Origin: Lamellibrachia satsuma
Lineage: Eukaryota > Annelida > Polychaeta > Sabellida > Siboglinidae
DNA length: 64,000 nt
Reading direction: 5' to 3'
Assembly (NCBI GenBank): GCA_033239005.1
Contig: BSQZ01000061.1
Span: forward strand, 2,191,501-2,255,500
The notes under the pieces are model-generated. The model searched no databases. It was not told the origin of the DNA and worked only from the letters and a program-made list of their open reading frames with translations. Each line of letters opens with the position of its first letter. Position 1 is the first letter of the stretch. This document shows positions 6,604-61,181 of the stretch, piece after piece. Made by a program: the position numbers and the translations under genes.

Positions 6604-8614
6604 AGGGCAGAATACGACAGTCTGGGGAGGTGCAGGTGCCTGCTGACAAGTACTATGGAGCTGTGACAGCGAGAGCTTACACAACCTTCAAGATTGGTGG
6701 CAGTACAGAACGAATGCCGGTGGGCATCTACACTCAGTTTTATTGCAACGCCACTCAGTTTTATTGCAACTCTGCTCAATTCTCTTGCAACTCCGTTCAG
6801 TTCTGTTGCTACTCCGCTCAGTTGTCTTGCAACTCCATTCAGTTCTGTTGCTACTCCGTTCAGTTGTCTTGCAACTTCGCTCAGTTCTCTTGTCCTCCGT
6901 TTGTTCTCTTGCAACTCCAATCAGTTCTCTTGCAACTCCACCCAGTTCTCTTGCAAATCTGCCAGTTCTCTTGCAACTCTGCTCAGTTCTCTTGCAACTC
7001 CACTCAGTTCTCTTGCAACTCCGGCCCAGTTCTCTTCTCACCTCCTACAATCAGCCCTATTACATCTTCTATTTACTCCTGACAGAATAGGAAATGTACC
7101 TTATTTTGCTACCCAGAATTAAAACTGTCACATTTTTGCGATAGACAAACAGACTATCAGAAATATTACCACATACTTCACTTTGTGCTATGATTAATTT
7201 GTGAAAAGTGGAAAAAACATGTTTGTGGATGTATTGAGATCACACAGGATAACTCAGTCCTTAGGCTTCACTAAATGTCTTGCCACCTGTAATGACAGGA
7301 TTACTGGATTCTTGTTTTCAGCTTGAAGTCATCCACGCGTTGGCTATACTGAAAAAGGCAGCAGCAATAGTGAACAAAGACTATGGCCTTGACCCAAGTA
7401 TAGCTGACATTATTGTCAAGGTAGTAGAAGAGGTAGGTATAACAGTCAGTCCATGTGGGTGGACCAGTATACTATACAGAGAATTAAAATATATAAATTT
7501 ATGAGGTTGTTAAAGCATGTTTACGTATCCTTGAAGAGCCACTGGCTGATAATCCAGGTATGTCTAACTGAGAAACTGTGCAGTTTTCAATGGCTCTAGG
7601 TGGAGCTGCTTGAGGTCATCCAGAGTCTGATAAACATGAACATAAACTACACATTCTCATATTAATATAATTATGTCTTGTGGTTAGAGTTGATAACAAA
7701 CATATATATTTTCTATTTTAACCTCAGTGTATAGCTTGCTTGCTTTAGAACAGATGTGCCTTTAATTATCTGCTAGGATACACAGTTGTTAATCCTTCAC
7801 AAAAATTAATTACCTATAACATCCTTTTTTAAATTGTAAAAATGTTATACATTATTTTGAGGCTTTTTCAAATCTAGTATTGTAACATCATTTTATATAA
7901 ATTCATATATGGAAATTTTATTTAGATTTTCACCTCCCACCTGACAACTTTGAAACATAATTTGCAGACTTTCCAGTGGAAGCCCTATGCTTGACAAGAA
8001 CAGATGACTGTGAGCGATGTTTGTCTTTGACAGGTGCTCGATGGCAAGTTGGATAAACACTTCCCTCTGGTGGTGTGGCAAACAGGCTCTGGCACCCAGA
8101 CCAACATGAATCTCAATGAGGTGATTTCCAATCGCAGCATCGAACTGCTCGGAGGCAAAATGGGTACAAAGAAACCTGTCCATCCTAATGACCACGTCAA
8201 CAAGGGCCAGGTGGGTGTAGTGATTGAACATGATTAGAAATGGTAATATCTCTCCAAAATATGTACGCTGGTAGTCTTATGTGCTTCGTCCTATACGGGT
8301 GGACATGTGTACTTGTATTGATCCATTCTGTTGGGTGGATCGTGGTGTATTTAAAATTCATAGTATGCAAATGTTACACAAAAATGTATTACACAACGTC
8401 TATGCCACGATTCATGTCTAACCATTGTATTCTATCTGCAGAGCTCCAATGACACGTACCCAACGGCAATGCACATTGCAGCTGCTACAATGATCCACAA
8501 GTGTCTTATGCCTGGTCTGGAACGTCTCAAAGAATCACTAAAATCAAAAAGTGATGAGTTCAAGGACATTGTAAAAGTGGGCCGCACACATACTCAGGTA
8601 TGGGTGCTTACACA

Positions 8615-8646
<32 letters not shown>

Positions 8647-8838
8647 CACACACACTCAGGTATCGGTGCTTTCACACACACTCAGGTATCGGTGCTTTCA
8701 CACACACTCAGGTATGGGTGCTTTCACACACACTCAGGTATGGGTGCTTTCACACACACTCAGGTATGTTGTGCTTTCATACACACTCAGGTATGGGTGC
8801 TTTCACACACACTCAGGTATGGGTGCTTTCACATGCAT

Positions 8839-8877
<39 letters not shown>

Positions 8878-11800
8878 GGTATGGGTGCTTTCACACACAC
8901 ACACACACACTCGGGTATCAGTGCTTTCACACACACTCAGGTATGGGTGCTTTCACACACACTCAGGTATGTGTGCTTTTACACACACTCAGGTATGGGT
9001 GCTTTCACACACACTCAGGTATGGGTGCTTTCATACACACTCAGGTATGGGTGCTTTCACATGCACGCACGCACGCATGCACGCACGCACACACGCAGGT
9101 ATGGGTGCTTTCACACACACACACACTCGGGTATCGGTGCTTTCACACACACTCAGGTATGGGTGCTTTCACACACACTCAGGTATGTGTGCTTTCACAC
9201 ACACTCAGGTATGGGTGCTTTCACACACACTCAGGTATGGGTGGTTTCATACACACTCAGGTATGGGTGCTTTCACACACATTCAGGTATGGGTGCTTTC
9301 ACATGCACGCACGCATGCACACACACACACATCTACCTTACCTTTATTTAGATAGACATTCTCATATACAGTTGACAATCTAACACAAGTAACATTGCGC
9401 AAGAAGCAGATCTACCACTTTTCTTGATGTGAGGGCAGTAGGTGAAGATCTGGTGCCGCGGGCCTTGTACCACGTTGTGAGGGAGGAGTGTGGAAGCAGT
9501 ACGTTTCCCATTCTTACAGAAAATGTTTCAGTTTGAGGGTATATTTACTTCATTCTGATGCATTTTCTACGTGAAGGGGTGGCAACAACCAAATTTGATG
9601 CTGTAATAAAATGTCAGATAGAATAAAATTATGTCCTTAGTTTCTTGGCAGATTGTCTTAATGCTTTGACTGCTTACTGCGCAGACAGTTGCTCTTCTCT
9701 GATCTTTAATATTTACATCAGTAAATAAGAAAAACATGCCAGTCAGGCATGTCTACAGAAGGAATTTAAATTAACTTATAAAATTTTTTTGTTACAATTG
9801 ATTCTTTCATTTTAAACTCCCTCCTCAATTCATGTTTTAGCCTGTTGTGAATCAGATTCGCTGCTGTTCATATATGTAGTGTGTGAATAGTTTATGTGGA
9901 CTGACGTCAAGTTAGTCAAAACTATCCCACAAATTGCTGCATAATTTCACCTACCCAAGTGGCGCGCTCTGGCAGAGATCGAATTGAGGAAGCACCTTTA
10001 ATACAAGTTATATTGTATAGTGTTCTCGATTTGTGACTGCAGTGAAATGATAGTTTGATGTGTCATTATACTTATGTCTAGCAGAGTAGCGTCTAGCCTG
10101 GTATTATGTATAAGCTTCTCAGTTATTCAGCTACTCATTCTGATTGTGAGACTTGGGAGAGATTTAACATGATTTAACAAGATTGCCATCTCGAACAACA
10201 AGTTCCTGATGGCAAGTGGACAAGGAAGCCATTGGCTTATCGAGAGTCCAACAATTTTCTCATCTATGTGTAGCCCGCCCTTATCAGATATCTGTCAATT
10301 CTATTTTTAAACATATTCACACTACTAGCATTAACACAATCATTTGGCAGTTTGTTCCATTCATTTATCACCCTCTGTGAGAAAGAGTACTTTCTCATGT
10401 CCAACCTACACTGCTCCTTAACTAATGCTGCTTTGTGTCCTCTGGTTCTAGTGCCTTCTTTAAGTTAGAAGAACATATTGCTATCAACATCCTCATAACC
10501 GTTCACTATTTTAAACACTTCTATTTGGTCTCCTCTTAGTCTCCTGGTCTATAGTGTTGTCAAACCACATTGTAATAAGCGACTTTCGTAACTTAGGTCT
10601 CTTAATTCTGGAATAAATTTAGGTGCTCTTCGTTGTATTCTTTCTAGCTTATCTATATCTTTTTACGAATACAATATTCCAAATGTGGTCTAGCTATTGC
10701 TTTGTACAGGGGTACAATTAGATGTTTGTCCTTATACGTGATAGTTCTCCTTATTGGCTCTAGAATTTGATTTCCTTTCGAAACAGCAATCCCACATTGC
10801 TCTGAAACTTTCATGTCAGCATTAAATGTTACTCCTAAATCCTTTTCTTGTGTGGTTCTACCTAGTACAGCATCCCCCATTTTATATTCCTCGTCCATAT
10901 TTCCATGTCCTATGTGTATACATTTACACTTCCCAAAATTTAATAACATTTGCCATTTTTCTGACCATTTAACTAATTTTTCCAGATCATCTTGTAAACT
11001 TTGGTTATCTGTATCATTAGTAACCTTTCTGAATACTTTTGTGTCATCTGCAAATTTGAGTACTTTGCTAGATATGTCATCCTCCAAATCATTTATATAT
11101 ATTCAAAACAGTATAGGGCCTAATACTGATCCCTGTGGTACCCCACTCAAAACAGATTTCCAGTTTGAAATCTCACCATCTACTATTACTCTCTGTCTTC
11201 TGTGTGTAAGCCACTTTTCTATCCAGTTGATTACATCATCACCTATGCCATGGGCTTTTAGTTTAAGTAACAATCTTTGATGTGGCGCTTTATCGAAAGC
11301 TTTCTGAAAATCTAAGTAGACAACATCCACTGGTGACCCGTCATCTACCCACTTTGTAATTTCTTCTAAGAAACATAAGAGATTGGTTAGACATGACCTT
11401 GCTTTTAGGAATCGATGTTGAGATGTATTTATTAATTTATGTTTTACGAGGAATTCCACCATGTGGTCTCTAATTAATGTTTCGAGTAATTTACATACAA
11501 CTGATGTGCAGTGCATGAGAGATGCCAATAGTTCCTACACATAATCCTTCCAGGATGCTGTACCACTGACCCTGGGTCAGGAATTTAGTGGCTACTACTG
11601 CCAGATGGTTCAAGCTATCGACCGAATCAACGGCACATTACCGCGACTCTACCAGCTGGCAATAGGTGGCACTGCCATTGGCACAGGACTGAACACGCAC
11701 GTTGGGTTTGCCGAGAAGGCTGCCGCACAGATTGCTGCATTGACAGGTATGCTGGATGACTCGCATGTTTGTCCTATTATACATCAACTGTCAGCAGATA

Positions 11801-14675
11801 TCTCATGAATGTTAGTTACAGTATAATTGGGTGTCTGTCTGCATGGATTGTCTGCAGTCATGGTTGAGTGTCAGCAGTCATGGTTGTGTTATCAGTCATG
11901 GTTGTGTCATCAGTCATGGTTGTGTCATCAGTCATGGTTGTGTCAGCAGTCATGGTTGGGTGTCACCAATGATGATTGAATATCAACATTTATCATTGAG
12001 TGTCACCAATGATGACTATGACTAATATGTACTGGAGTTATTAATGTGCTCCTAACATTGTAAAATGATATGACCAGTTTATGTGTATGTTTCACATTGT
12101 TGTCACCTTGCAGACCTGCCATTTGTGACAGCCCCCAACAAGTTTGAGGCACTAGCCACCAAGGACACAATGGTTGAAGTGAGCTCAATCTTAAACGTCA
12201 TCGCAGCAAGTCTCATGAAGATTGCCAATGACATTCGCTTCCTTGGCTCCGGTCCTCGCTGTGGGCTTGGGGAACTCTCCCTGCCTGAGAATGAACCAGG
12301 AAGCAGCATCATGCCAGGTATGTCAGCAGTGCATGTTGTGTCAGCAGTATGTGTGTGGTGTCAGCAGTCTGTGTGTGGTATCAGCAGAGCATGTTGTGTC
12401 AGCAGTATATATGTGGTGTCAGCAGTGCATGTGTGGTGTCAGCAGTGCATGTTGTGTCAGCAGTATGTGTGGTGTCAGCAGTACATGTTGTGTCAGCAGT
12501 ATATATGTGGTGTCAGCAGTGCATGTGTGGTGTCAGCAGTGCATGTGGTGTCAGCAGTATATGTATTAGTGCCCTGCACTGGCCAGGCTTTGGGTCCAAG
12601 CCGGGCCTTTAAAAAATTTGCGGGCTGGGCCTACATATTGCGGGCTGGGCCTGGGCCTACATATTGCGGGCTTGGGCAATATTAATAAAAACTTATTATA
12701 AATCGTATTTCCGGTTAATAATGTTTAAAATGATTTCTTTAGTATTACATAGTTGCAAATTATGAATGACATCAGTGCTTTATATATTGGAATGTAGTTT
12801 AACCTCTCTTCAACAATGTGACTTCCAATGGTATCATTTTAATAATGTGCATTCTTTTAATAGACATTCCATATAGTAGCAATGCATAGTCTTACATACA
12901 CAGCACACATTACACAGTACATATTGCTGCTACATGGTACATACAGAATTCAGATGCTACAGATGCATATTTGTTGTATAAATGTAGCCTTTTGCATAGA
13001 TCTAATGACCCCATAAGTTCACTTGGCTGGAAATAGCCAGCCCCAAATGTTTACTTTAAACATATTTGCAGACCATGATTAACCATCAATGTATCACCCG
13101 TTGACCCTACCAGTGGACATTCTATTGTGTCCCTCCAACTTGGCTGGAAATAGCCAGCCCCAAATGTTTACTTTAGACATATTTGCAAACCATGATTAAC
13201 CATCAATATATCACCATTTGACCTTACCAGTGGACATTCTATTGTGTCCCTCCAAATTTTGCCTGCCTGAATGACCTGCCCAGTGGCAACTGCCCACTGC
13301 CCAATGCCAACCCCAGTTGGTAGTTTGTGTCAACTAGTGTCTACTGCTTAGTGTCTACAATTTCCCCAGTACTGATTCATTCACACTTGTACTAATTCAC
13401 ACATGTCTGAACCTGATCTGTCTCAGGTTAGAGACTGCAGACCTGCTGGAAATGCCACTGGGTGTCAGTGCCAGTGGGTGACATTTAATTGAAATATAAA
13501 TGAATACCAAATTAACTGCCTTTACTGGTAACATTAACTAATTAAATTAAGTTAACTTAGTTGAGCTAATTCAATTATTAAATTAGGGTTATGGTTTGCA
13601 TTAGGGTTAAGTTAGGGTCAGATAAACAAATCTCCTACCCTAACCATAAGCCAATAAATTAAAGCTATATATAATAATATGTTATAATACTTAATAGTAA
13701 TGACAATTAAGAGTATTTTTCTTCAGAATATTCGTCCGTTTGAAGCAGTTGGTTGTGCTGGATTTCTAGAACTCGTCCAGCACACTATGGACAGTAAAAA
13801 GCAGACTAGTAGACATTATACAATGTTCATACATTATTTTTTTATGTCATTTCACAAAACAATACGTATGTAATACAGTTTATTTGTGTTTTGTTTTTAT
13901 TATTATAAGATAATAGGTTTTTACCTTTTAAAAATTTAGTGGGCCGCAGGCTTACCCGTCTTTGGCCCGAGGGTATGGGCTAGGGCTGGAATGTGCAGGC
14001 CGGGCCAGGGCCAAACATTAAGTCTGGGTTGGGCTTAGGCCTAAATTCTAGTTTGCGGGCCTTGACTGGGCTTGACAAATTTTTGCGGGCCTGGATTCTA
14101 ACTGCTAATTGCGGGCCGGGCTTGAGCTCGAATTATAGGCCCATGCAGGGCATTAATATGTGTGGTGTCAGCAGTCCATGTTGTGTCTGTAGCACATAAG
14201 CAGTGCCTGTGGTGTCAGCAGTATGTGTGGTGTCAGCAGTATGTGTGGTGTCAGCAGTGCATGTGGTGTCAGCAGTATGTGTGGTGTCAGCAGTGCATGT
14301 GGGGTCAGCAGTATGTGTGGTGTCAGCAGTGCATGTGGGGTCAGCAGTATGTGTGGTGTCAGCAGTGCATGTGGTGTAAGCAGTATGTGTGGTGTCAGCA
14401 GTGCATGTGGGGTCAGCAGTATGTGTGGTGTCAGCAGTGCATGTGGTGTCAGCAGTTCATTGATGTAGTATGTGCATCTGTGGAAGACATCTTAAGTGGT
14501 AGTTTTTATTGGTTCATAGTTACATTTGGCTTATGTTGCTTTCTTTTATCTTTACTTATGGTACTTCACTTTGAACAGTCCCAAGGACTGGATACCGCGC
14601 TATATAAGTATGTACCTTTACATTTATAACAACATATTATCAGCCATGTCATTATTTGACATTTTGTCTGCTGCG

Positions 14676-14711
<36 letters not shown>

Positions 14712-15863
14712 GTTTTCTTTAGTTTGGCTGCACTATAACACATTGTTTTACTTGCATCTGGACAGAGCATGAAGATAGCGGCTATTTTCCATAGTTCTTC
14801 TGTTAACTGATAAGTCCACTGAAACAAGACAACTTCCCCAGTGTGATGACCCTTTCGGGAATATGGTGAAACTGGAATTCCGCATGAGTATTTCTATAAG
14901 ACGAACTAAAATTTATAAGAAGTACTAGGTTTGAAAGTGTTATATTCTGATTTTTGGGAATACAATATAATGTTGGCTTTATTTGGACTTTATTGGGAGC
15001 AGAAAATAATGACCATGATGCTGATAAAATGATGAAGGTTAATAAGGGACCTTGCCAAAATACCCACCAGTATGGTGGAAAACAGTCACTTATTTAATAG
15101 TAATATTTATTTATTTTTGGATATATATTATATATATATACAGCAGCCTGATCAAATGTACATTAAATAAGTAATATCAGTTACTGCCATTGCTGAACAA
15201 TTGAAAAATGACCACAACTGAACAATATAGTACCATTGATGAATGTACAAAGACATTATTTATACTTTAGACATGACGAATGCCCATCAACGAATGTAAT
15301 ACTGATGTACAGGTATAGCCAAACCAAATCTAACTATGGAAAATAAAAACTACTACATAAGTCGCGCTTGGTCTTCCATAGTTCTGTGCATTCTGTAATT
15401 TGAATATTCTATTTATGAATATGCTATTTGTATTGTAGGTAAAGTCAACCCGACTCAGTGTGAGGCCGTCACAATGGTTGCCGCTCAGGTAATGGGAAAC
15501 AATGTCGCAGTCTCGATTGGTGGTGCAAGTGGCCATTTTGAATTGAACGTGTTCATGCCATTGATCCTGCGTAATGTGCTGCAGTCAATTCGTCTGCTAG
15601 GCGACGCGAGCCACTCCTTCGCAGTGCACTGTGTCGATGGAATCACAGCTAATCACAGCCACATCGACAAACTACTCAATGATTCCCTAATGCTTGTCAC
15701 AGCTCTCAGCCCTCACATTGGCTACGACAATGCAGGCAAGATCGCGAGGAATGCACACGAGAAAGGCCTCACATTGAAACAGTCCTCTGTTGAACTGGGT
15801 CTTGTCACGGAGGAACAATTTAACAAGTGGGTCAGGCCTGAGCTGATGCTGGGCCCCATGTGA
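6604..15863 (+). CDS. FH: Fumarate hydratase, class II (copy 1, FH1), seven exons
   Basis: This enzyme interconverts fumarate and malate in the TCA cycle and works as a homotetramer. Exons: 6604-6719, 7322-7432, 8034-8210, 8442-8597, 11554-11746, 12114-12317, 15439-15863 (stop TGA). All junctions are AG/GT and phases agree throughout, giving about 459 residues; mature animal FH is about 466. Visible signatures are [27 protein letters not shown] (catalytic His region) and the GSSIMPGKVNP loop, which is split by the last intron. The 111- and 177-bp exons equal the human exon sizes as I remember them. No exon with a start codon and mitochondrial leader was found, so the annotated region is 5'-incomplete. 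Exon 1 here differs from FH2 by a cluster of changes ([11 protein letters not shown] versus [11 protein letters not shown]). Confidence 0.95.
6733..7040. repeat. 21-bp minisatellite in FH1 intron after first visible exon
   Basis: About 15 degenerate copies of a CAGTTCTCTTGCAACTCC-type unit start 13 bases after the splice donor at 6719. The array is open in several frames on both strands, which explains the long Cys/Gln/Ser-rich frames; these are not proteins. FH2 has a shorter version at 53537-53755. Confidence 0.9.
8591..9335. repeat. 26-bp minisatellite seeded from the FH1 exon 4 splice donor
   Basis: The exon ends ACACATACTCAG and the intron begins GTATGGGTGCTTACACAC. The array repeats CACACTCAGGTATGGGTGCT with TTCACA, so each unit carries the last six exon bases plus the donor. 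There are roughly 23 units, interrupted by (CGCA)n and (CA)n runs. Long His/Thr-rich frames over it are not genes. Confidence 0.92.
10164..11516 (-). mobile_element. CR1-like LINE insertion, 5'-truncated and inactive
   Basis: A 1353-bp insertion in an FH1 intron is flanked by the direct repeat GAGAGAT (10157-10163 and 11517-11523). FH2 has the empty site. Read on the minus strand it encodes a non-LTR reverse transcriptase: [29 protein letters not shown], a TGA stop, then IYINDLEDD and KFADDTKVF (YADD-type box). It ends with the C-terminal region [16 protein letters not shown] as VRxxYSFSQ-like text. At least one stop and one frameshift (near 10667) break it. The 3' end is a short direct repeat, ATGATTTAAC. 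This is typical of CR1/L2-type elements. Confidence 0.92.
11850..11965. repeat. 18-bp minisatellite in FH1 intron
   Basis: Six or so copies of TCATGGTTGTGTCATCAG-type units start about 100 bases after the exon ending at 11746. The FH2 equivalent is at 57100-57230 and has a different unit composition. Confidence 0.8.
12318..12566. repeat. 17/18-bp minisatellite, left part, beside FH1 exon 6 donor
   Basis: GTGTCAGCAGTGCATGTG-type units begin immediately at the splice donor (CCAG, then GTATGTCAGCAGTG). The array is interrupted by a hAT element at 12567 and resumes at 14156. Confidence 0.9.
12567..14155. mobile_element. hAT-type non-autonomous element inserted in a minisatellite
   Basis: The element starts TAGTGCCCTGCACTGGCC and ends GGCCCATGCAGGGCATTA (CACTA in the FH2 copy), so the ends are inverted repeats. 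Flanking octamers are ATATGTAT and ATATGTGT, seven of eight matching. The ends are rich in GCGGGCC/GGGCCT motifs, and the centre has a two-copy repeat of about 117 bp (13022-13256). No transposase frame is present. The same insertion at the same site is in FH2, so it predates the duplication. Confidence 0.8.
14156..14457. repeat. 34-bp (2x17) minisatellite, right part
   Basis: This is the continuation of the 12318 array after the hAT element: alternating GTGTGGTGTCAGCAGTGCAT and GTGTGGTGTCAGCAGTAT units. It is open in three + frames, giving Cys/Val/Ser-rich frames that are not genes. Confidence 0.9.
14555..14620 (+). mobile_element. SINE 3' tail fragment
   Basis: ACTTTGAACAGTCCCAAGGA followed by CTGGATACCGCGCTATATAA matches the 3' tail of the SINE at 41155-41500 and of the fragments at 25565 and 34300. 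The GCGCTATATAA ending is widespread in L2/CR1-mobilised SINEs. A pure (AT)n tract lies just downstream at 14680-14709. Confidence 0.6.
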
Positions 15864-16135
15864 GCTCCTGTCATCAACTGAGCTGATGCCGGGCCCCAAG
15901 TGAGCTCCTGTCACCACAAGGCCTGAACTCATAGTAGGCCCACTTGATACCACCACAAGGCCTGAGCTCATAGCAGGCCCACCTGATACCACTACAAGGC
16001 CTGAGCTCATACCAGGCCCACCTGATACCACCACAAGGCCTGAGCTCATACCAGGCCCACCTGATACCACCACAAGGCCTGAGCTCATACCAGGCCCACC
16101 TGATACCACCACAAAACCTGAATTGATTATTGGAC
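15820..16135. repeat. 39-bp minisatellite derived from the FH1 stop-codon region
   Basis: The last codons and stop (CAGGCCTGAGCTGATGCTGG, then GCCCCATGTGAGCTCCTGTC) are repeated downstream with drift as CAAGGCCTGAGCTCATACCA plus GGCCCACCTGATACCACCA, about seven to eight units. The array lies in the presumed 3' UTR. FH2 has one or two fewer units (61180-61405). Confidence 0.88.
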
Positions 16136-16387
16136 CAAAGGGCTGATCTCATGCTGGTCCTAAATTGATCTCATACCACCACAAGACTTGAACATATCGA
16201 TCTCATACCACCAAAAGGATCTAATGTAATGGATGAAAATGAACACCATTGTCAAACAAATCCTGAAGGTGAAGAATCTCAAGATGTTATGTAAATTATT
16301 TTCTTTGCCTTTCTTGGCAAATGTGATAACTTGATAGAGTGGCATGGTTTTGCCGGCATAGTGTAAACATACTTAGGCATTTTGGCA

Positions 16388-17045
16388 CACTAGGGTAGCA
16401 TAAGAAACAATACAGTGGCATGGTTTGAACAACACTAGCCAGGCATAGTGTAAACAATACTTTCTAGGCATGGTTTGAGCAACACTAACCAGGCATAGTG
16501 TAAACAATACTTTCTAGGCATGGCTTGAGTAACACTAGCCAGGCATAGTGTAAACAATACTTTCTAGGCATGGTTTGTGCAACACTAACCAGGCATAGTG
16601 TAAACAATGCTTTCTAGGCATGGTTTGAGCAACACTAGCCATGCATAGTGTAAACAATACTTTCTAGGCATGGTTTGAGCAACACTAGCCAGGCATAGTG
16701 TAAACAATATTTTCTAGGCATGGTTTTAGCAACACTAGCCAGACATAGTGTAAACAATACTTTCTAGGCATGGTTTGAGCAACACTAGCTAGGCATAGTG
16801 TAAACTACTTTCTAGGCATGGTTTGAGCAATATACTAGCAAGACATAGTGTAAACAATACTTTCTAGGCATGGTTTGAGCAATATACTAACAAGGCATAG
16901 TGTAAACAATACTTTTTAGGCATGGTTTTAGCAACACTAGCCAGGCATAGTGTAAACAATACTTTCTAGGTATGATTTGAGCAATATACCAGCAAGGCAT
17001 AGTGTAAACAAAACTTTCTAGGTATGGTTTGAGCAATATACTGGC
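16388..17045. repeat. ~48-bp minisatellite downstream of FH1
   Basis: About 14 units of ACTTTCTAGGCATGGTTTGA plus GCAACACTAGCCAGGCATAG plus TGTAAACAAT. FH2 has around 22 units (61625-62660), so copy number differs strongly between the two blocks. The sequence between 17046 and 17540 has no recognisable gene. Confidence 0.92.
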
Positions 17046-18922: not shown

Positions 18923-21900
18923 TTACCACTTGAATTTAAATTCTGTCTTCAGCAGATATTTCGCTTGAATCTGTGCAACATCATAAACAATATATCTGCA
19001 ACAAGTAAAGGATATACTGATCTATACATTGGCAGCTTTGCAACAGACAAACAGTAATTCAAAGAAAATGTCAAAGAAAAAGGCTAGAGAGATTAGGTGA
19101 CCATTTTTATTCTGTAAAACGAATGTTAGTGCAAAGACGCTGAAGAAAATCAAACCAATCTGTCTGATCTAAAATTCCAATATCTTATGCTAAATCTGAT
19201 GGTGTCAGTTCACCCCAAGTTTGTTACCCATGCTTTCATCTACATCAACATATGTTACCCATGCTTTCATCTACATCAACATATGTTACCCATGCTTTCA
19301 TCTACATCAACATATGTTACCCATGCTTTCATCTACATCAACATATGTTACCCATGCTTTCATCTACATCAACATATGTTACCCATGCTTTCATCTACAT
19401 CAACATATGTTACCCATGCTTTCATCTACATCAACATATGTTACCCATGCTTTCATCTACATCAACATATGTTACCCATGCTTTCATCTACCTCAACATA
19501 TGTTACCCATGCTTTCATCTACATCAACATATGTTACCCATGCTTTCATCTACATCAACATATGTTACCCATGCTTTCATCTACATCAACATACTGAACT
19601 CGCTAGTCTGTGAGTTTGTGTTCACCAAACACAGTGCAATGTAACTAGTGATTGTATTGTATTGTATTGCCTACATGTTCCTATACCTACCTTTGGTGCT
19701 GTGTTTCCCTTTGGGTAACTTGTCGACATACTTAGACTGGGTCAACTCATACCTACAACCATACAAGGGTTCGTCCCATATGCAATCTTCACTGAACACG
19801 TCTTACAACGTATCAATGCCCATAAGCCAACACAATGAGTGCTGTGCACATGCCCTGCGCCAGGTAGTTCAATTCTCTACTATTTTTGGACAATGACACA
19901 TAAAAGGTGTAAATAGAATAAATAAGGTTTGTGCATATTTTGCTAAAATACTCAATTGTTTAATTATGATTGTAAGCAACAGTAAAACATCTTTCAGATT
20001 GTACTCGGTTTATGACGTTATAGTTTACCAGTGGTGACTAATTATGATGCAATTATATAGTCTAATAAATGTGTTGAGCTAAGCTTTGGCATATCATTTA
20101 GTATTCAACCTCCCACAATCCACGCAGAAGGGAGATTATTCAGTAGAGACACCTGGTGAGAATGGAATACACCACATCTATTCCACCAGGTAGTGAATTT
20201 AGTGTAAGGTGATGACTGAAATACACGTATTGTTTGTATTCACATAGCAACACCAAGGAGATGAGAACTTACATGTTGCCAAAAGCAACCTCACACAGCA
20301 TGAGCAGGCCAACAGGGCTGGACTTGTTAACTCTGCAGTAGTTAGCACTCTTGGACACCATATCAGCAAAGTAGACGCCTTTACCAAACATGTAACCAGT
20401 CTGAAACATATCAACAAGATAAATTGTCAGTAAACGTTTTTATAATCATGTTATAATGGCTACGGTGCACAGTCCTTGTAGGGAGAGATTCCTTTCCCCT
20501 GTCGTTCAGATGAGGGACTGGGGCACTCACGGGACGGGGCACCGGTGGACAGGGGCACTTGGGAATGGGGACATCTGGGGGTCGGGGACACCAAGTGGAT
20601 TGGGTCATCTGAGGACAGAAAAGAGACACAGAAAGAGGGACGGGACACTTCATGATATTTATGGTAACCCAAAGTATGTACAAGTCTCAAACAAAACAAT
20701 TAATGTTAAAGATATATACATATCACAAAATGTTTTTGTACCATGTAGTGCTCCAGGCACTATGTATGCCCCATATCTATGCACCATTTAGTGTTCCAGG
20801 CACCATGAATGACTAGTATCTGTGCACCGTGTAGTGCTCCATGCATCGTGTATGCCCCGTATCTGTGCACCATGTAGTGCTCCAGGCACTGTGCTCACCA
20901 GAAGACATTTGTTTTTCTAGGAAGTTGTCAAACAGTTAGGCACATTCTTAAGCCTGACTGCTTTCAAACAATCCCCAAAATGTCACTGAGGTGACAATGT
21001 TAAGTGGGTAAATTGTAAATTATTTGCCCTAATTTTTTTTTAAATATATACATGTGCATGTTGCAGGATTGTATGTACATAAATACAATGGTTTTGTTTA
21101 TCAAGGGTGGGGGTAGGTGTGCACCTGTAAGTAGGTATTCTAATTAAGGTACGAGGTAATTAATTTTGCTTGTTTCATAACAAAGCAGACTTGTTATTTA
21201 AAATAAACAGGGCTGTGCTGAATTTCATGGGCAACACATCTTCTTCATCCCCTGACTGGGACGGTCATAGGGGTGCCATGATCACACAGTCCTCGCCAAC
21301 GTTGTCTGTCCTCTGCTATGCGTAGCAGGGTCAGTAGGTCTTGATGTGTCCATTGCTTTATGTTGTCTACTAGTCAGTTTTTCTCTGGCCCTCCAGGGTG
21401 CCTTGCAGAATAGTTTTTATAATGGTGTTGTGTCGAGTCACAAGTGTGACAACCTAACCAGGAATGCTTGCATTGTTTAACTGTTGCCAACAAGGGCTCT
21501 TGCTTTCCAGCGAGGGAGTCTACTTGTCTCACATATTCGTTTGTCTTGTGTTCAATGTATGAAATGCGGAGGAGTCTCTTGAAGCATTTAGTTTCAAATG
21601 TTTGTACACGTCTCTCTGTCTCTGCTGACAGAGTCCAGCTATCGCATCAGCAGAGGAGGATGGATACAGCAAGTGCTCTGTAGAGATTAAGTTTGGTTTG
21701 TAAGCTGATGTCTCTGCTCTTCGCTAGCACACATGGCCACTGCAATCCTTATTTTGATTTCCTTTGTTGAGGTGCCATCTTTGCTTAAGGTGGACCCAAT
21801 GTTGAAGAGAACTCCAGGCACAATGTATGCCCCGTATCTGTGCACCATGTAGTGCTTCAGGCACCATGTATGCCCCGTATCTGTGCACCGTGTAGTGCTC

Positions 21901-24900
21901 CAGGCACCATGTATGCACCGTATCTGTGCACCGTGTAGTGCTCCATGCACAGTGCTCACCAGAAGGCATTTGTTGCTCTAGGGAGTTGTCAAACAGTTAG
22001 GCACATTCTTTAGCCTAACTGCTTTCAAACAATTCCCACAATGTCAGTGAGGTGGCTATTCTATTTTGGGGCGTAGAACTGCAACTTAAGCAACTATTTG
22101 CTACCAATTTATCTCATTATTTTGACAATTCCCACTGACCCTATCAATCTAAAATTAGATTTCAATATGAGAAAGCCATTATGAGATATTAAGGCCAAGA
22201 TTGTGATGTCACATGTAATTTACTTACCACTGGCGCCTCTGGTGGAGCGATACGCAGGCCTTGCGAGAGAATTCCAGCGTAGTTGGCCGTGCCTGAGCCG
22301 TGCCACAGCAACTGACGGTTGTTTAAAGCCTTGAATGGCTTGTAACGTTTACGTTCACCCTCACACTCTACCTTGAATATCTATAAACACAGATCATCAT
22401 CAAAGTGAACTACATGCCTGGAACCAACACCTACCTTGAATATCTATTAACACAGATCATCATCAAAGTGAACTACATGTCTGGAGCCAACACCTACCTT
22501 GAAGATCTATAAACACAGATCATCATCAAAGTGAACTACATGCCTGGAGCCAACACCTACCTTGAATATCTATTAACCCTTTTAACACTTTCAACTGCCG
22601 AAAATGGTTGTTGTCGAATATCCTCATAATGGCCACATATGGCTTTGCATAGAGGCCAGGACCAATTTTCGTATAACAATTAGTATCTGACATGAGAACA
22701 ACTAGTATCAATCGAAAGCTGATTGATTCTTCTTTCCGTCTCATATTTATTCATGACCGGTTTCAAAGATAACTAGTGAGACCATAGTTTAGAAAACACA
22801 TGATATAGTTGGTGTCCACATTTGGCAATTTGACTACTCTCTGCACAATAAATAAAAGGATAAACCAATGGAAAGTTCCGTGATTGACCTTTTCGAATAA
22901 ATTTACACGAATAACCTGACTTTATGCAGGGAATGAGAGTTGTGATTACAAAACACGTGCTGTGGCTCCGTTCCCTGCCACTTGTTGACACATGTCCACC
23001 ATCTTGTTGTCTCGCCGCCTCTCACTTCTGTTACATCGCATTATTTCAAGTTTCAGCGTCAATATTTTGACAAAACAACATAAGTGAATTATGTTATTAT
23101 ATTAGTTAGACAGAATGACTTTGCAGGCGTCTTTGAGATGAATATTCAGCGAGTTGCCAGGGGGATTTGCGTTGTTGGTGGCAACCGGCTCTGCGACGAT
23201 AAATGTGGTTTTTAGCCTGTCTGAGGCAGCCTAGTTCAAAGCTGGCAAAAATCTTTAAAATAAAAACTTTTCAACATAATTGATTCCTTTTTCTTTTATA
23301 TTGCAGTTACCATGTATAGCTACATTTGTCTCATTTGTCTCATTATAGCGACTCAGTAATTATCTTGTGAAAAAAACTGAATTGTCTTGCCTTGGTGAAA
23401 TTCAGGAGTAATAACCCTTGATTAAATGATGTGATGTTTATTATCATAGTATTACCAACAAATTGTAATAGGCATAGACGATGTAGAAACTGTTGATAGT
23501 TTAACTTATCTAGGCTCAGTTATGGATGCAGACAAAGGTTCAGCAGCAGATATAAGTGCACGCCTAAAGAAAGTGAGAGCAGCCTATTATAAACTGAGGA
23601 AAGTGTGGGCATCAGACCAATACAGAAGGAAAACAAAACTCAGAATCTACAAAAGCAATGTGATGTCGGTTCTAATATAAGCCATATGTAATTGTAATAA
23701 AGCATTTCATTAGCAATAAAATAATACCTCATTCATATTTTTATGATGATTATTAGTAAAGTTATGATTTTTTAAAGTAACTGTACTACAGAGGATTACC
23801 ACAGAGCATGGCTAGGCCTGGGTAATAAGAGGAAACTGAAATTATTTTCACCATGACAATCAAAGGTTAACATACATTAAAAGCCTCATTTTAACAACAT
23901 ATTTGTGGTTATTGCATTGCTAGAGTTTGGGGAAATGTAACTAAGATTCCCTGACATGTACTACTCCTAAAATGCAAATGCAGTGACAACAGTGGGCAAA
24001 TAAAAAAATTTTTTATAAATTATTTTCTGTTTGGTGGTGTTGCACCTTAATTTAGCATGTATTCACGAAAAACCATCTTGAAATGGGAAACTTGACTTGA
24101 CAAATAAACAGATTTGAATACACAGCTTTCATCTGTACATATATAATATACAACCCATGTAAATAACCTCTGCATTAGCCGAGGAAATATAGCCCGACAT
24201 ACATGTTAAAAATCTGCTTCCATTTCCAACAATGCCCGTGGAGAACTGGGTAAAGTGACGGGACAACATTTATATACACGTTAGGCTATGCTTAAAGACT
24301 GTCTCTCACCTCCTGCACATTGAGGCCATACTGGTTGTGTGTAGACGCATGTGTGTTGGCCACATATTCCGTCAGTCTCTTGTATTCCTCGCTCTCCTTG
24401 TCTAGAGGCTACAACAAGTCAAGACCATCTCCAGTCAACTCTACCAAACTTTATCTAGCTCCTTCCTCAATCCATTTAGCCCATTGCGAATCAGGTTCGT
24501 TGAAGTTCATGCCTGTAATATGTGAATAGCTTACATAATGTGCACAGTCGGTCTAACAGAAGAGTGCATATTTTGTTAACACCAACAAAGGAATTGGCTT
24601 CGATCATCAGATGAGGTAACTTGCAAGTGTAAATAGCTTTATGTCATAGCACATCAAAAATAATTTAATAGTTTGTCACTGGGGTTTTATAATACAACAG
24701 CAACATAGCATATTAATAAGTGGTGCATATCAAGAAGTGACATATCTAGATATATTCATATAATTCTATATATTCTAGCCACAATGAGTACCTCTAACAA
24801 TTCAGACATCTTTCTGGTTACGGTTGAATGTTTTGAACTACTACCTATGCAGCAATAACTCCATATATTATGGTCAATATGGACTAACAGATTTTCTGAT

Positions 24901-27288
24901 GCACAACCTTTCCGATCAATAAAAGATGTGGAGACTTCAACAAAACTTAAAATCACAACTTTTAAGTAAATCCCACTGCATTTATCTTCAGTCCGTAAGC
25001 ACACTGACCTATAGATCTGTCTTAAGCAAGTCCGCTGACCTATATATATAGGTCTTAAGTAACCTCTATATATATCAATCTTAGGTATACCCACTGACCT
25101 ATAGATATGTCCTAAGTAAGCACACTGACCTGTAGATCTGTCTTAAGTTTCTCATAGTGTAAGTCTATTGGGTCTTTGGTGCTCTCGTCTCCAGCCGTCA
25201 GCATGCTGTAGGCGATCTCAAAATCAAGTAGATTCTGCAGCATCTCCGTCTTCATCTACAATGGACAACATCACAATATCACAGACACACAAAAGTGATG
25301 AGTTGTTGGTCATAGCAACTACGAGTGGTAAAAATGTTGTGTTAATTAATATATATCAATAAGGGGTTGATCCACAGTTTGGCATTGATGGGGGCAGGTG
25401 GGTGTAACTATCAACATTCAAACCTACCCCAACATATTACACGTAAACAGAAATGTTAGCCAAACATTTTTTGGGGGTCACAAAAAGCATAAAATATAAT
25501 AGTACATGCCACGATATATCCACACCTGCAAATAATGTGAAACAAATTTTCATGTTGTAATTGCACCATGGCTGAATGCATCCCAAAGAAGTGGAGTTGT
25601 TGGAAGAAACAGGTCTGTGAGAGGGTGAAGTGTAAGGCACATTGAGTGGTCCTACAGACTGGATACCGCATTATATCAGAAGTCACCTTTACCTTTTATA
25701 CCAACAAGTCTCTGGCTGCAGCAAGTTCATGGAAACTGGATGACTTCACAGGACACGTCGCACTTATCAACAGTACACAATGTGCTTCTACTTGAACTAA
25801 CGACCTTTTCAGCTAAAATATATGGTTGCATTATAAGAAATAAGGCATTCACACAACTTACTTTTATAGTCTCTGTACTGCTGAGTACAGGGGGTTTCTT
25901 CATGCCAAAGTCATGAGGGATGAGCGTGTAGAAGCGATTTGAGGCGTCTAGAAACTGTGTCGGTGTTCCGCCTTTCTCAATCAGCTGCAAGCAGACTCCA
26001 AGTGAGAAACTACTCCCACTCTATATTCCCTCATCTTGTGGCAACCATGGCAAAACATCACGTCTAAAAACGATCCCATTAAAGCATACACAGACTTACA
26101 AGTTATGAAACAGCAATGTTCAACCAATTCTACAATGTTTCCTAAAGTTGAACTTTTTAATTTGTTGGTAGAACGCTGGTAATGTTTTAACCAATGTACA
26201 AAATATTCCCAACCAAACAACAGTAGCATGGTACACTGGTCCAGTTTACATGACAGTAGCATGTTAAACTGGCCCAGCTTACATGACAGTAGCATGTTAC
26301 ACTGGTCCAGTGAACATAACAGTAGCATGTCAAGCTGGTCCAGTTTACATAACAGCAGCATCTTACACTGGTCCAGTTTACATAACAGTAGCATCATACT
26401 ACTGTCACAATGGTCCAGTTTACATAACAGTAGCATGGTACACTGGTCCAGTTTATATAACAGTAGCACATCACACTGGTCCAGTTTACATAACAGTAGC
26501 ATGTCACATCGGTCCAGTTACATAACAGTAGCATGTTACACTGGTCCAGCTTACACAACAGTAGCATATTACACTGGTCCAGTTTACATAACAGTAGCAT
26601 GTTACACTGGTCCAGCTTGTGGTTTCAGTCCATGTTGTGCACATGCACCAGTATATCATAAGCACATACACAGTGCTGCTCACCGTTTTGTTGCATCTGA
26701 CTCAAGCAGCTGAAATTTGTAGTAGGAGTTTGTGCCTCGGACAAGGTCAACTAATCCGAGAACGGCGTTGTAGAGTTCATCCTTAACCTTCAGCACATGG
26801 GCTTTGTCCTCAAGACCTGTAAATGTATCGTAAATAGCATACTCAATAATAGCAGCCTCAAGTGTGTGTGCGTGCGTGTGAGGCACGGATTAATTAAATT
26901 GTTAACTGAATTAATTAATTAACTATTCCAGAAAGACTAATTTAATTTAATTAACTTTAACAAAAGGGGTTCATTTAATTTAACTGAAAAATTCCCAATT
27001 AACTCTCAATTTAGTGCTCATTTAACAGTTGATACTACTGGATAGTTCACAACTATGTTGTCCAGGTGTTTACAGAAGGCCTACAGTCACAACATAGATG
27101 CACACAGACACTGTCTGAACCAACTGGGCTGGTCATTCAGGCACCTGTGAATTGGAGGGAAGGCCTAGATAATAGAATGCTGTCTGATAGGGTGATAAGT
27201 TGATGGCTAATCTTGGCTTCAGCAAATTTCTGTTTGAAGTAAACATTTGGGGCTGACAACCTGCAACCAAGTGGACCTATGGCGTCAA

Positions 27289-27353
<65 letters not shown>

Positions 27354-27361
27354 TGTGGTGT

Positions 27362-27421
<60 letters not shown>

Positions 27422-27441
27422 TGTGGTGTGGGTGTGGGTGT

Positions 27442-27527
<86 letters not shown>

Positions 27528-30500
27528 ATATAACCGTTAATGGGGAGATGTAGAGAAAGGTAATATAGTTTAAGTTTGGGATCTTTTTACAGTGCCAACT
27601 CAAATCAAAAGCAAGCCAATTCTAGTGATGCATAAAAAATAGTGTATACATAGTGTGCAAAGGAGAAACCTAATGATTTAGTATAAAACACTGCATAAAT
27701 AATAACTTGGCGCATATAAATTATGTATGTAGTTACCTGGTTTTGTTAATTTGTTGGTTGAATATAGGAGGAAACCCCCTTACACCTGCAAATCTGCAGC
27801 ACAACATCTCAATCCTTTCAGATTTTTTTTACAAGTATCTACAACTTTTAAAATGTGATCAAATGCCCCATGAATAAATGTCTTGGCATGTAAATATTGC
27901 ATGAGCAAATCTCTTTCCAACAAAGTTACATAACAAATTTCTGTTACAAGTCTTGTGATTTTAAAAATGTTTTAAATGTGTAAACATTTCTACTAACTTT
28001 AATTATTAATTGAATAGAATTAATTGTTTATTTAATTTAATTGAAGAATTTGGGAGGTTAATTTAATTGGAGAATTTCCGAGTTAATTGTAATGTAGTTA
28101 ATTAACTTTTAAAGTTAGTTGCCCCATGCTTGGTTTGTGTGTGTAAGTGCCACATAGAATACATGAAAATGACTTGTTCACCATAGCACCATTATTCATC
28201 ATGAATAGGTAATTTACAAATATCAGTCATAAAAAGTAAGATGCTCTACTTTCGACCAATTATGCATAGTTTATTGGTTCAGGTCCATAAAACACGAGAC
28301 AGAAAAATACAATGTAATGTTGCTAGAATCGATCTATCAATTACCCGAGTCTGGATCTACTGCTGCACCTCCTTTCACCGTCATCTTCATCGTCGACGGA
28401 ACGCTCTTTGTGAACATTTTTTCTGTAAAATAATGGCAACCACAAATATAAACTTTTATTACTTTCTTTTAACATTTTACACTTTCAGGATCTCTGCTGA
28501 TTTCCAGAACCAAAATTCAAGAAATGTTGCACATTATGATTGTTATATGGGTAACAACACCAAAGACATCTATGATATCACTTATGAATAAAGACTCCAG
28601 TTAAACACTGTAACAACCTGTTGACAGCCATTACTCCCACTGCCCTTGGGAGTAATGGGGGCAGTGTGAAGGGAGCAGTCAGTTTCTCTGGGGAGACTTT
28701 GTGACAGACAGTCAACACTGCAGACAGCCTGTGTATCTGCCTCCCGTATCAGGTCAACATTCTTACCATGGCTAACATCTCATGTACGCCGAGTTAGTAG
28801 AACTTAGAAACTATTAAATTAGCCATAAAAGATTTCTAAATGTGAATCAGTTGGAATATTTCAACAGATCTCCCTGAATGTGTGTGCCAGATGGATACAG
28901 TAACCATGGCAGCACAAACCGTCTCCTAGTCAGGATGTACACTTAGAATGTTAGGTTCTGCATGGGACAACACGTTTCTTCAATTTAAATATTTAAGGTG
29001 AATTTTTTTAATTTAAGGAAATTAATCTATTGAAATAAATGTATTCAATATACCCCAGGGCAGGTCTTAACAAGATATGTAGACCAATGACAGTGGGCGT
29101 ACCTTCCTTCTCTTTTCTCTTTGTGCTGACACTCTTCATTGGCCCATCAACCGCATCACCCAGTCGATCCAGTGGCTGAACAAGGAGTAAACAACACCTT
29201 TTGTAAGAATTGGCAGCAATAAGACCTTCTTTAGTCTAGGAATCACGTTTTAATCACACAAAAATTAATCATTGTGCATAAATCACTAAGACTGGTACTG
29301 ACGAGAAAACCCACGACACATAGATTTTCGATTTAGTTATAACTGTCTTTGAGGGACCTACTTTTACTTTTGATGGAAAATTGGAAAAAAGAAAAACAAA
29401 TGAAATAAGTTACAGTAATATGATGATCTCACAACATTGACGCAAGGCACTAAATGAAGCTGATTTCAACAGGGCAGTAGCCATTTCATTTACGGCTGTA
29501 TTTTCACTGAAAAAAAACATTGTCTATTTATGATCAAAGTTGATATGGGTGCTGACTTTGAGCATAGTTGATATGGGTGCTGGCTTTGAGCAAGGTTGAT
29601 ATAGGTGCTGACTTTGAGCACAGTTCATATGGGTGTTGACTTTGAGTATAGTTGATACGGTGCTGGCTTTGAGCACAGTTGATATGGGTGCTGGCTTTGA
29701 GCACAGTTGATATGGGTGCTGACTTTGAGCACAGTTCATATGGGTGCTGGCTTTGACCACAGTTCATATGAGTGCTGACTTCAAGCACAATTCATATGGG
29801 TGCTAGCTTTGAGCATGGTTGATATGGGTGCTGACTTTGAGCACGGTTGATATGGGTGTTGACTATGCGCACAGTTCATATGGGTGCTGACATTAAGCAC
29901 AGTTCATATGGGTGCTGATTTTGAGCACAATTCATGTGGGTGCTGACTTTGAGCACAGTTCATATGGTTGCTGACTTTGAGCACAGTTCATATGGGTGCT
30001 GACTTTAAGCACAGTTCATATGGGTGTTGACTTGGAGCACATGCTGGCAGTTTTGAGTTATGACAGCCAAGGTGACACACAGGTTGATATAATTCAACGT
30101 TTCCTGTAATGGGATGATGAGGGTAAACAATATTAGTTTTGTGCAGCGTCAGCTGCGTCATACATCAGATCATCTCTTATATTCACAGTGCAATACAGCA
30201 ACACGAAAATACGGCAGCAGACAAAATGTATGACTGCCACAAAGCGTACCTGACTGCCACAAGACGTACCGGACTGCCACAAGATGTACCCAACTGCCCA
30301 AGAAGTACCTCATTGCCTCAAGATGTACCTCACTGATCCAAGATGTATCTGACTGCCCCAAGACGTACCTCACTTGCCCAAGACGTATTTGACTGCACCA
30401 AGAAGTACCTCATTTACCCAAGATGTACCTCACTGCCCCAAGACATACCTGACTGCCCCAGGACGTGCCTCACTGCCACAAGATGTACCTCACTGCCACA

Positions 30501-33500
30501 AGATGTACCTCACTGCCCTAAGATGTACTTCACTGCCCCAACACGTACCTTACTGCCCCAAGATGTACTTCACTGCCCCAAGACGTACCTCACTGCCCCA
30601 AGAGCAGATGGAATGTTGTTTAATGAGTAGAGCTGCACCACCTTTCTTGACTGCTTCGACAAATCCAACGTCAACAACCTGGATATCACCGTCTTTGGCT
30701 TCTTTCATCAGCTTGCTGTTCTTCTCTACCTCCGCTGTGAGGAACAACACGCATTCTTAATGAAACCATTCCGTGCATCGTTACATGTATAATTCAATAC
30801 ATTTTTGTGTTTAACTATCTTGAATTTGAACAATTATCTTACCTCTACGCGAAATCTTAAGTCGAGAAATAAAAAAAATTGTATTAACTATCTTTCATAT
30901 ACCTAATTAGCATGCAGATTTTTTTCATATAAACAAACTACACAAATACTCAACGTGCCTTTGATACTGATGCAGGCAGCCGTTTTCTTGTCGACCTTCG
31001 TGACGACATTTCCTCCCGTTTCGGTGATTGCCCGAGTCACTTCTTTTCGGGGTTTCTCCATCTTCCCAATAACGACAAACTTCATTCCATTCAGGGGTTT
31101 GTTCCCACCGGCATCCCCAGCCCCAGACATACTCGCTTCGGTTACGGCTGGGAAGACTCTGTCCCTTTTTACGTACTTGTACTTTTTTCTGAAGAAAAAT
31201 ACATTCATATTTCCTTCTGAATTTATGGTTACCATGGCAGTAATGGCTGTTGAATCCGGCGGAAATCACAATGGTAACTTGCTTATATCTACTTCAAAAA
31301 AGCCTGCAACATCATTCTGTCTGAACTATAACATGATTCGCTAATGCTGTCATGCAATTTACCGAAATATTGACGTGGAAACTTGAAATAATCCGGCCTA
31401 AAGTGAACCAACACAGAACAAAGTAGGAAAACAAAATGGTGGATTAGTAAATAAAAAGCCCAGAGCAGCCAAGACAACATGTGTTTGTAAAGACGATGCT
31501 CTTTCGCAGTATATAACCAGCTCACTCAGTCACATATATTTGAATAGGCCAATCACAGAACTTTCCTAAGGTATAATGTGTGACATATTCAGATACCATG
31601 AATGGAAGCATAGTAAAAGCAGCCAAATATGGGCACAAACTATATGACATGTCTTGTAAGCTAGATTGTTACTACCAGGATAACTATCATTTGATTATGC
31701 TCAGAAAAATATGAGACAGAAAGACTAGTGACTTGGCTTTCCAATGACACCATTTGTTTCTGTGTGAGGCACTATTGACAACAACAAGAATTGTTACTCC
31801 ATACCAAAATCTACCCGAACACATTACGCACTGATCGTGTGGGACAAATTCGGCCCTGTGGTCCCTCCTAGGGTTAAAAAAGGGTGAATTAAATGTATTT
31901 AGTATTTCAACTATGAATTATGTACAAACTATTCAATTGGAAATCTTCAACTGTGATAACGAGTGTTTGGAATAAAATTCCAGAGCGCCAATTCCAACTT
32001 CAAACCTTGGATTTCACCTAAAGTAAAATATTTATAAATATTAAAGGTAAATATGATAATTAAGTTGGCCTTAAATGGAGAGAATACCTGTCATTTAAGG
32101 GAATTTTGGACAGCATTCACAACAATCTCTGTATTTACATATTAATAAAAATGTAACCACCATAAACGTGAAAACATCCCAAAGCCTGCAGTAGCGTCTC
32201 TGCCTTACTGCTTGTTAGGATTCCCTTTTTACATCTCAGCCTATTTTGTTGATGACTGAAGACAACAATTGGCGGTAGAGGCACTCACAGACAAGGAATG
32301 TCTTTGTACTCAGCGTCGATGACAAACAGCTTCCTAGGTGGTTTCTCGACCACAGCTTGACACTTTGTCCACTCGGTGGCATCACCTGTACATCTGTAGC
32401 CACTGGCAGGACAGATAAGAGCAGACTGTGAAGACAACTACTTCTCTTACAATGACAAGTATCAAACATAAGTTGCCCAATATCTGTAGAACTACAGGGT
32501 GTTCCTAAAACTGTACAGCTAGAGGGTGTTCCTAAATTATCTTTCTTATTTGAATGTCAATAAAAATAATTAAAAATAACAAATAGACATACAAGCATGC
32601 AGTTTGCACCATCTAGTAATCCAACCCAAAGAATGTTTTGTCACATGTCGGTAGACTTCCATGCATGTGCCACTGACGACTCTTAAGATACCTAACCAAC
32701 ATTCTCTTCCAGCCCAAGTTTACTGCAAGTCGTCTACAGTCACACAGGTGGAGGGTTTAACTCAACCTGCTCAAGATATGATGCGACTACTGCAGCATCA
32801 CTGACCTGCTGTACTTGAGTTGGCCGCCACATTCAGCACACGGCTTTAGTGCACCAAAGAACATAACGTCTGTGAGTGCATCAAGTACCTAAAAAACCAA
32901 TATGACGTCTGTGAGTGCATTAAGTACCTAAAAAAACAACATGACGTCTGTGAGTGCATTAAGTACCTAAAAAACCAACATGACGTCTGTGAGTGCATTA
33001 AGTACCTAAAAAACAACATGACGTCTGTGAGTGCATTAAGTATCTAAAATAAACAACATTTGTCTGTGAGTGTATCAAGTACCTAAAATAAACATCATGA
33101 CTTAGAGTTAGAAATATATAGAAGAAATGAAGATGGCAGGGAAGACCTACGACTGAACTCGACTGGCTCACCCAAGACCGAGTGTGAAGTATGGTCATAT
33201 AGAAGAGATGAAGATGGCATGGAAGACCTATGACTGAACTCGACTGGCTCACCCAAGACCGAGTGTGAAGTATGGTCAATGTTTACCAACAAAATGTAAA
33301 ATAATAATATACGAAAAGCATTTGTCTGACAAAAGTTTTATAGTTAGAAATAAATTTCAATCATATGAAAGAAATGTAAAATATGCTCACAGTGTAAAAT
33401 ATGGAGCAACTGTTAGTGTTACCATAACATGCAAGAAACTACATCAGGAATATAAAGAGAAACAGGAGCCACAAATATGTAGGAAGAACAGTGGAGTAAA

Positions 33501-53408: not shown

Positions 53409-61179
<7,771 letters not shown>

Positions 61180-61181
<2 letters not shown>

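Follow-up and report, generated by a model that had tools for sequence, protein, structure and literature searches.

Results

Tandem arrays spanning exon edges of FH and PARP1

The DNA studied here is a stretch of 64,000 nucleotides (the window) from the tubeworm Lamellibrachia satsuma, which is part of contig BSQZ01000061.1 (C61) in a 735-Mb assembly of 279 contigs. It carries exons of FH on the plus strand and of PARP1 on the minus strand, and the subject of this report is a set of short tandem arrays in these genes, of which the repeat units contain a copy of a splice junction, or of the stop codon, together with adjoining exon bases. Exons were placed by spliced alignment to the human proteins, and the PARP1 exon edges were refined in copy c7 of the gene cluster with the proteins of Lamellibrachia satsuma and Ridgeia. 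This cluster, FH followed by PARP1 exons, is present in seven tandem copies (c1 to c7) in the surrounding 250 kb (C61:2172500-2397500); the window contains copy c2 and the FH gene of c3, in cluster segments at positions 6624-33790 and 53429-64000.

Tandem Repeats Finder (TRF) returned 76 rows within the window. The original prediction had named six arrays with a junction or the stop codon plus exon bases in the unit, and all six were recovered by TRF and by alignment (Table 1), with the true junction (or stop) and its copies aligning base for base. Five of them span true exon-intron junctions. The sixth spans the FH stop codon; it exists as described, but it is not a splice-junction array because there is no splice junction at that position. 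Likewise, the two host genes had been called unrelated. Both do carry arrays, but FH and PARP1 share one seven-copy tandem cluster.

The FH exon-4 donor (8597|8598) is followed by 21 further copies of the junction, located from 8660 to 9287, of which 19 retain AG|GT; (GCAC)n/(CA)n tracts are interspersed between the units. The equivalent array of c3 also contains 21 further copies, all with AG|GT. The predicted rows of decoy splice sites are therefore present as junction copies. For PARP1, the acceptor of the zinc-finger-3 exon (32889|32888, TTTTAG|GTACTT) has five further copies (AG|GT in four), the BRCT donor (30589|30588, CAGTGAG|GTACGT) has 17 (AG|GT in 10), and the donor of the exon encoding KLKTDLQ (25130|25129, CTACAG|GTCAGT) has three, all with AG|GT. 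Two further copies were found for the acceptor of the exon encoding IFKVE (22381|22380, TTATAG|ATATTCAAG|GTAG); neither has AG|GT at the junction, the acceptor AG being kept, and the unit contains AAG|GT 9 nt into its exon part. Both c2 and c7 have these four PARP1 arrays, and the PARP1 proteins of L. satsuma and Ridgeia align to c7 unbroken over all four junctions. In the FH stop region of c2, the aligned coding end is at 15857 and the TGA at 15861-15863. There is one clear copy 40 bp downstream, and a degenerate one (15 mismatches in 44 positions) at 16163.

Assuming equal base frequencies, we estimate that a 24-mer with at most five mismatches is expected at about 4e-8 per position, and the junction copies are therefore not chance matches. 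With introner-like elements in mind, which are related sequences scattered over many intron positions, the five junction units of the window were compared; they show no relatedness visible by eye, and a self-comparison of the window gave no long match between these arrays. The arrays that begin close to the donors of FH introns 1 and 6 contain no junction copies at the threshold used.

Table 1. Positions of the arrays, exons, gene copies and deletions discussed in the text (window coordinates unless stated otherwise).
Feature	Position	Strand	Basis or remark
FH exon 4 (c2), end ...CACACATACTCAG, donor GTATGG at 8598	8442..8597	+	Human FH spliced alignment
FH exon-4 donor array, 26-bp unit CACACACACTCAG|GTATGGGTGCTTT	8598..9303	+	TRF, sequence
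FH c3 exon 4 (55165-55320) and donor array	55165..56066	+	TRF, alignment
FH stop-codon array, 40-bp unit x1.9, then 39-bp unit x5.4	15838..16121	+	TRF
FH c3 stop-codon arrays, matching c2	61152..61405	+	TRF
PARP1 zinc-finger-3 acceptor array, 39-bp unit x6.3	32856..33101	-	TRF, alignment
PARP1 BRCT donor array, 20-bp unit x18.6	30233..30603	-	TRF; donor via L. satsuma/Ridgeia proteins on c7
PARP1 donor array (exon KLKTDLQ), 31-bp unit x5.1	24995..25148	-	TRF, alignment
PARP1 acceptor array (exon IFKVE), 63-bp unit x3.4	22363..22577	-	TRF, alignment
FH intron-1 array, 21-bp unit x14.6, begins 14 bp past donor	6733..7036	+	TRF
FH intron-6 array, 20/58-bp unit, begins 4 bp past donor	12321..12564	+	TRF
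PARP1, truncated tandem copy (c2)	18929..33790	-	Alignment to human PARP1, copy comparison
Second FH copy (c3), repeats FH arrays of c2	53429-61175	+	
Deletion in c2 and c3; close variants in c6	2369251|2369889 (c7 coordinates)		
Deletion in c2; close variants in c6	2378704|2380637 (c7 coordinates)		
Deletion-linked regions	19222-19593, 26219-26615		c7 equivalents 2369889-2370134, 2378300-2378917
Myosin exon-11 acceptor-edge array (contig C36)	within C36:2510501-2523000		
Probable kinesin (C38), 51-bp unit x3, ACCAG|GTAGGG	piece L040, 0-based 3021-3173 from start	-	

One of the seven FH copies lacks the exon-4 array

The number of further copies of the FH exon-4 donor is 20-24 in c1-c6, and none was found in c7 in a test covering 3 kb on either side. 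The copy number of a junction array thus varies from 0 to 24 among the tandem gene copies. In c7, the donor ...CACACATACCCAG|GTATGGGTGCTTA is directly followed by a (GCAC)n microsatellite. The unit of the arrays in the other copies consists of a 16-17 bp junction core with CACACA flanks, from which we infer that the CA-containing exon end and the intron microsatellite are the likely slippage partners. Copy c7 may represent the earlier, pre-array state, although loss of an array by deletion from one of these tracts to the other would look alike. Two small duplications in FH intron 6 (26 and 117 bp) are also present in c1-c6 and absent from c7, and the intron-1 array ranges from 10.6 to 15.6 units across the copies. 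Arrays at 11855-11958, 12321-12564 and 14199-14456 have similar units (CAGTCATGGTTGTGTCAT- and TGTCAGCAG-type) despite being located in different introns (FH introns 5 and 6).

The FH reading frames are open in all seven copies over the 1353 bp compared, which include 96 bp of model exon 1 (the first exon or exons were not found) and a forced exon-6 edge in c4. Relative to c7, the ratio of nonsynonymous to synonymous differences per site (pN/pS) of c1-c6 is 0.23-0.34, based on small counts (14-34 differences each). The FH protein has 70-73% identity to proteins of many phyla among the 120 matches listed.

PARP1 is near-complete in only one of the seven copies, c7. Its product shows 97% identity to Lamellibrachia satsuma PARP1 in the best piece, which covers 53% of the query, 81% to that of Ridgeia piscesae over the full query and 55% to that of Branchiostoma belcheri. 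These values fit a vestimentiferan tubeworm close to Lamellibrachia and led us to reject amphioxus as the source of the DNA; COX1 had no match in the assembly. In the window copy (c2), the parts corresponding to about human residues 1-247, 583-717 and 951-988 were not matched, whereas c7 has exons for all of them, including the one encoding the catalytic Glu. For about residues 951-988, c7 gave a match and c1-c6 gave none, and about residues 582-717 are matched in c7 only. When c2, c3 and c6 were compared, two deletions that remove PARP1 exons (Table 1) each had an end that falls in an array or at its edge. Arrays may have helped to remove PARP1 exons. A third gap, 2387303|2388275, lies within one 81-bp array and corresponds to a change in array length.

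A fragment resembling a reverse transcriptase of the long interspersed nuclear element (LINE) type is located at positions 39559-40132, in the DNA that separates PARP1 from the following FH copy; we take its YADDLAMI motif to be that of such an enzyme. In the cluster flanks, none of the 56 open frames listed with the best scores was clearly a further gene.

Arrays are dense in introns and, in other genes, are found on junctions about as often as expected

It had been argued that chance placement of arrays in introns would not put exon bases inside a unit. This is not supported: arrays are dense, filling 24% of the FH_c2 and 22% of the PARP1_c7 introns, and junctions in other genes are matched at the expected rate. 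We scored a 24-mer as repeated if a near copy was present within 1.5 kb. By this count, 14.9% (FH_c7), 24.5% (FH_c2) and 21.8% (PARP1_c7) of the intronic 24-mers are repeated, versus 7.7%, 15.4% and 7.9%, respectively, of the junction 24-mers containing 6-18 exon bases. Junctions are therefore repeated less often than introns (8-15% versus 15-25%), and coverage likewise gives no ground for the claim that their repetition exceeds chance. Exon-internal 24-mers are repeated least (0.2-2.2%).

In a per-array count, a random seed for each array in the array-collapsed gene gives the expected number of junction matches. Eight independent gene regions were analyzed, which are parts of two PARP-family, three myosin and three kinesin genes picked by PARP-domain, myosin-head and kinesin searches. 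In these regions, 2 of the 110 junctions are matched, versus 1.98 expected (P 0.59). The notion that splice junctions are preferred targets is not supported by this sample, which is modest in size and would still fit a twofold excess. Predicted exons that were too short or unsupported were dropped (4/10 on C12, 4/14 on C11, 1/13 on C26, 3/9 on C2, 1/15 on C36, and 2/6 and 1/5 in kinesin genes), as were one donor on C12, one in a kinesin gene and the outer edges of end exons. Of the 29 exons in the PARP1_c7 model based on the Ridgeia protein, 24 entered the counts; four ambiguous edges, the end edge and the exons present solely in the L. satsuma-based model were excluded.

Junction arrays in a myosin gene

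Both matches in the independent regions are donors of one myosin-head gene, located on contig C36. One has a 34-bp unit with three further copies at the 24-mer threshold and four at a looser one (AG|GT in two of the four); the other has a 71-bp unit with nine further copies at either threshold, all with AG|GT. These two arrays provide the strongest outside support for the observation of junction arrays; the phenomenon is recurrent in an unrelated gene, without a demonstrated excess. In addition, the end of the intron preceding exon 11 of the C36 gene has 18 further copies upstream of the real acceptor, a row of decoy acceptors. These include one exon base, and this acceptor was counted as unmatched within the 110 junctions. 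Finally, a probable kinesin gene on C38 contains a 51-bp array towards the end of its motor domain. The reading frame is open throughout the array, the donor is putative, and the repeat may be either of the junction kind or part of the coding sequence.

Discussion

The anatomy of the arrays, the array-free tandem copy, the change in copy number and the seven open FH frames were observed directly. The explanation that we consider likely is that these are junction-spanning minisatellites (“mirages”, see below) that were generated by ordinary slippage or template switching, and that their placement is due to chance in introns rich in minisatellites. Junctions would then be struck because the introns are crowded with minisatellites, and not because of a demonstrated targeting of splice sites. 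An array would be seeded when replication slips, or switches template, between short stretches of similar sequence that flank an exon edge. In the case of FH exon 4, the microhomology would come from the exon end CACACATAC together with the (GCAC)n tract at the beginning of the intron, and the intervening 16-17 bp (about CTCAG|GTATGGGTGCTT) would be multiplied. After seeding, arrays would expand and contract like ordinary minisatellites. Fully exonic arrays are presumably purged by selection, and junction arrays would survive where the true outer junction still functions, so that the copies end up within the intron as decoys, which are probably unused in splicing. Copying from spliced RNA was rejected as a source of the arrays, because the units contain intron sequence that is continuous with exon bases.

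Several observations weigh against placement by chance or against the proposed origin. For FH_c2 and PARP1_c7 together, 5 of 55 junctions are matched versus 1.13 expected (Poisson P 0.006), in a count where FH was entered once (copy c2) and in genes that were chosen because the pattern had been noticed there; pooled with the independent regions, seven junctions are matched versus 3.11 expected (P 0.04). In FH and PARP1, the number of arrays lying no more than 20 bp from an exon edge also exceeds expectation: 6 of 18 versus 1.97 for PARP1_c7 (P 0.01), 3 of 8 versus 0.68 for FH_c2 (P 0.02) and 3 of 5 versus 0.40 for FH_c7 (P 0.004), with the two FH copies not being independent of each other. Two borderline arrays that were not counted, the acceptor-edge array on C36 and the 51-bp array on C38, would raise the independent set to 4/111. 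Moreover, microhomology was inspected for one array only, and c7 could be reverted rather than ancestral, having lost its array. The excess in FH and PARP1, the clustering near exon edges, the start of two FH arrays at +14 and +4 of their donors, and the direction of the two borderline arrays all favor a process that targets splice junctions, for instance through transcription-coupled breaks, R-loops at 5' splice sites or RNA-using repair. We nevertheless regard such targeting as improbable, because the eight other gene regions show no excess and the coverage of junction 24-mers is below that of introns; an RNA-based variant is further disfavored in that intron sequence runs on from the exon bases in the units, which is incompatible with a spliced-RNA template. 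Regarding the amplifying process that the original prediction had proposed for segments spanning splice sites, slippage is the best supported form, thanks to the array-free c7, but in the independent regions no excess over array density was found that would call for targeting. An assembly artefact, in which repeats were collapsed or expanded or haplotypes were joined end to end, is very improbable. The presence of seven near-identical copies on one contig would be in line with it, but the sets of arrays differ in detail among the copies, the exon for residues 951-988 was found in c7 but not in the other six, and similar arrays are present in an unrelated gene on a different contig.

Selection might also act as a filter, such that seeds fall anywhere and, over junctions, mainly units carrying AG|GT persist, a possibility that we consider rather doubtful. 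AG|GT makes each unit an acceptor as well as a donor, so that tandem copies would cancel in splicing and any mix of sites would give the right mRNA, according to the logic of Rogers' model. AG|GT is present in 6 of the 7 junctions with copies versus 57 of the 158 without (one-sided Fisher P 0.013), and the unit of the seventh has its AAG|GT inside the exon part. However, this tally was made post hoc on seven cases and is weaker within donors (5/5 versus 41/74, P 0.06) and within acceptors (1/2 versus 16/84, P 0.36). AG|GT is kept in just 10 of the 17 BRCT copies in the window and in two of four in a C36 array, and the acceptor-edge array of C36, with its 18 copies, lacks it. It is a tentative and not very probable idea that AG|GT arrays persist as self-cancelling units, as zero-length exons like the ratchet points of recursive splicing. 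If true, introns would grow from their own edges free of cost and such edges would be a standing source of new introns; the tally suggests a checkable rule for the survival of junction arrays.

Mirages seemed to be an oddity of lancelets, and the annelid cases suggest that they may occur anywhere that minisatellites abound in introns. A simple null for claims of targeting is given by the number of arrays, the length of their units and the length of the introns, and FH c7 beside c1-c6 constitutes a with/without set for studying effects of decoy donors on splicing.

Comparison with known systems

The arrays resemble ordinary intronic mini- and microsatellites, to which most local arrays belong, in how densely they occur, in the length of their units, in the imperfection of the copies and in their changes of length. 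They differ in that six include exon bases, which by the present counts mainly reflects where the seed fell. Internal tandem repeats reportedly also change gene structure in human segmental-duplication paralogues (PMC2812944).

According to the introduction of PMC4974935, in Rogers' model the tandem duplication of a segment bearing AG|GT creates a new acceptor and a new donor, and intron-gain examples include a potato RNA-dependent RNA polymerase (RdRp) gene and a 24-bp case in fission yeast. The tubeworm arrays are similar in that a short AG|GT segment is duplicated in tandem, adding splice sites. However, in intron gain, an exonic or edge-crossing segment gives rise to a new intron, whereas here the copies lie inside an existing one. 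For FH, a new intron between duplicated segments was not found: the array-free c7 and c1-c6 share their introns (an extra 7-bp exon of c4 was judged a slip of the model).

The closest counterparts are the mirages of amphioxus, which, according to PMC3087553 and PMC3902484, are minisatellite-like tandem duplications of exon-intron boundaries present in Adh3, the globin genes BflGb6 and BflGb9, PGBD5 and troponin C. In the same sources, the Adh3 and globin units measure 10-160 bp and often keep AG/GT, length is unstable between haplotypes and in the soma (the copy number in BflGb6 varies by haplotype), reverse transcription PCR (RT-PCR) suggested that splicing is retained, and the globin authors tie mirages to Rogers' intron-gain model. 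Published mirages were found for amphioxus only, in search results judged mostly by title and abstract, and a literature search for siboglinid and minisatellite gave no matching publication. The tubeworm hosts differ from the cephalochordate ones, in being annelid genes (FH, PARP1 and a myosin gene). Also unlike mirages, one array covers a stop codon, an array-free FH lies beside array-bearing copies, and the arrays are known from DNA, whereas the splicing of mirage-bearing genes was studied by RT-PCR. As in mirages, the units of five window arrays and two on C36 span a true donor or acceptor with exon and intron bases, they measure 20-71 bp (20, 26, 31, 39 and 63 in the window; 34 and 71 on C36), many but not all keep AG/GT, and copy number differs between gene copies. 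As far as literature searches reach, the tubeworm arrays are mirages in another phylum.

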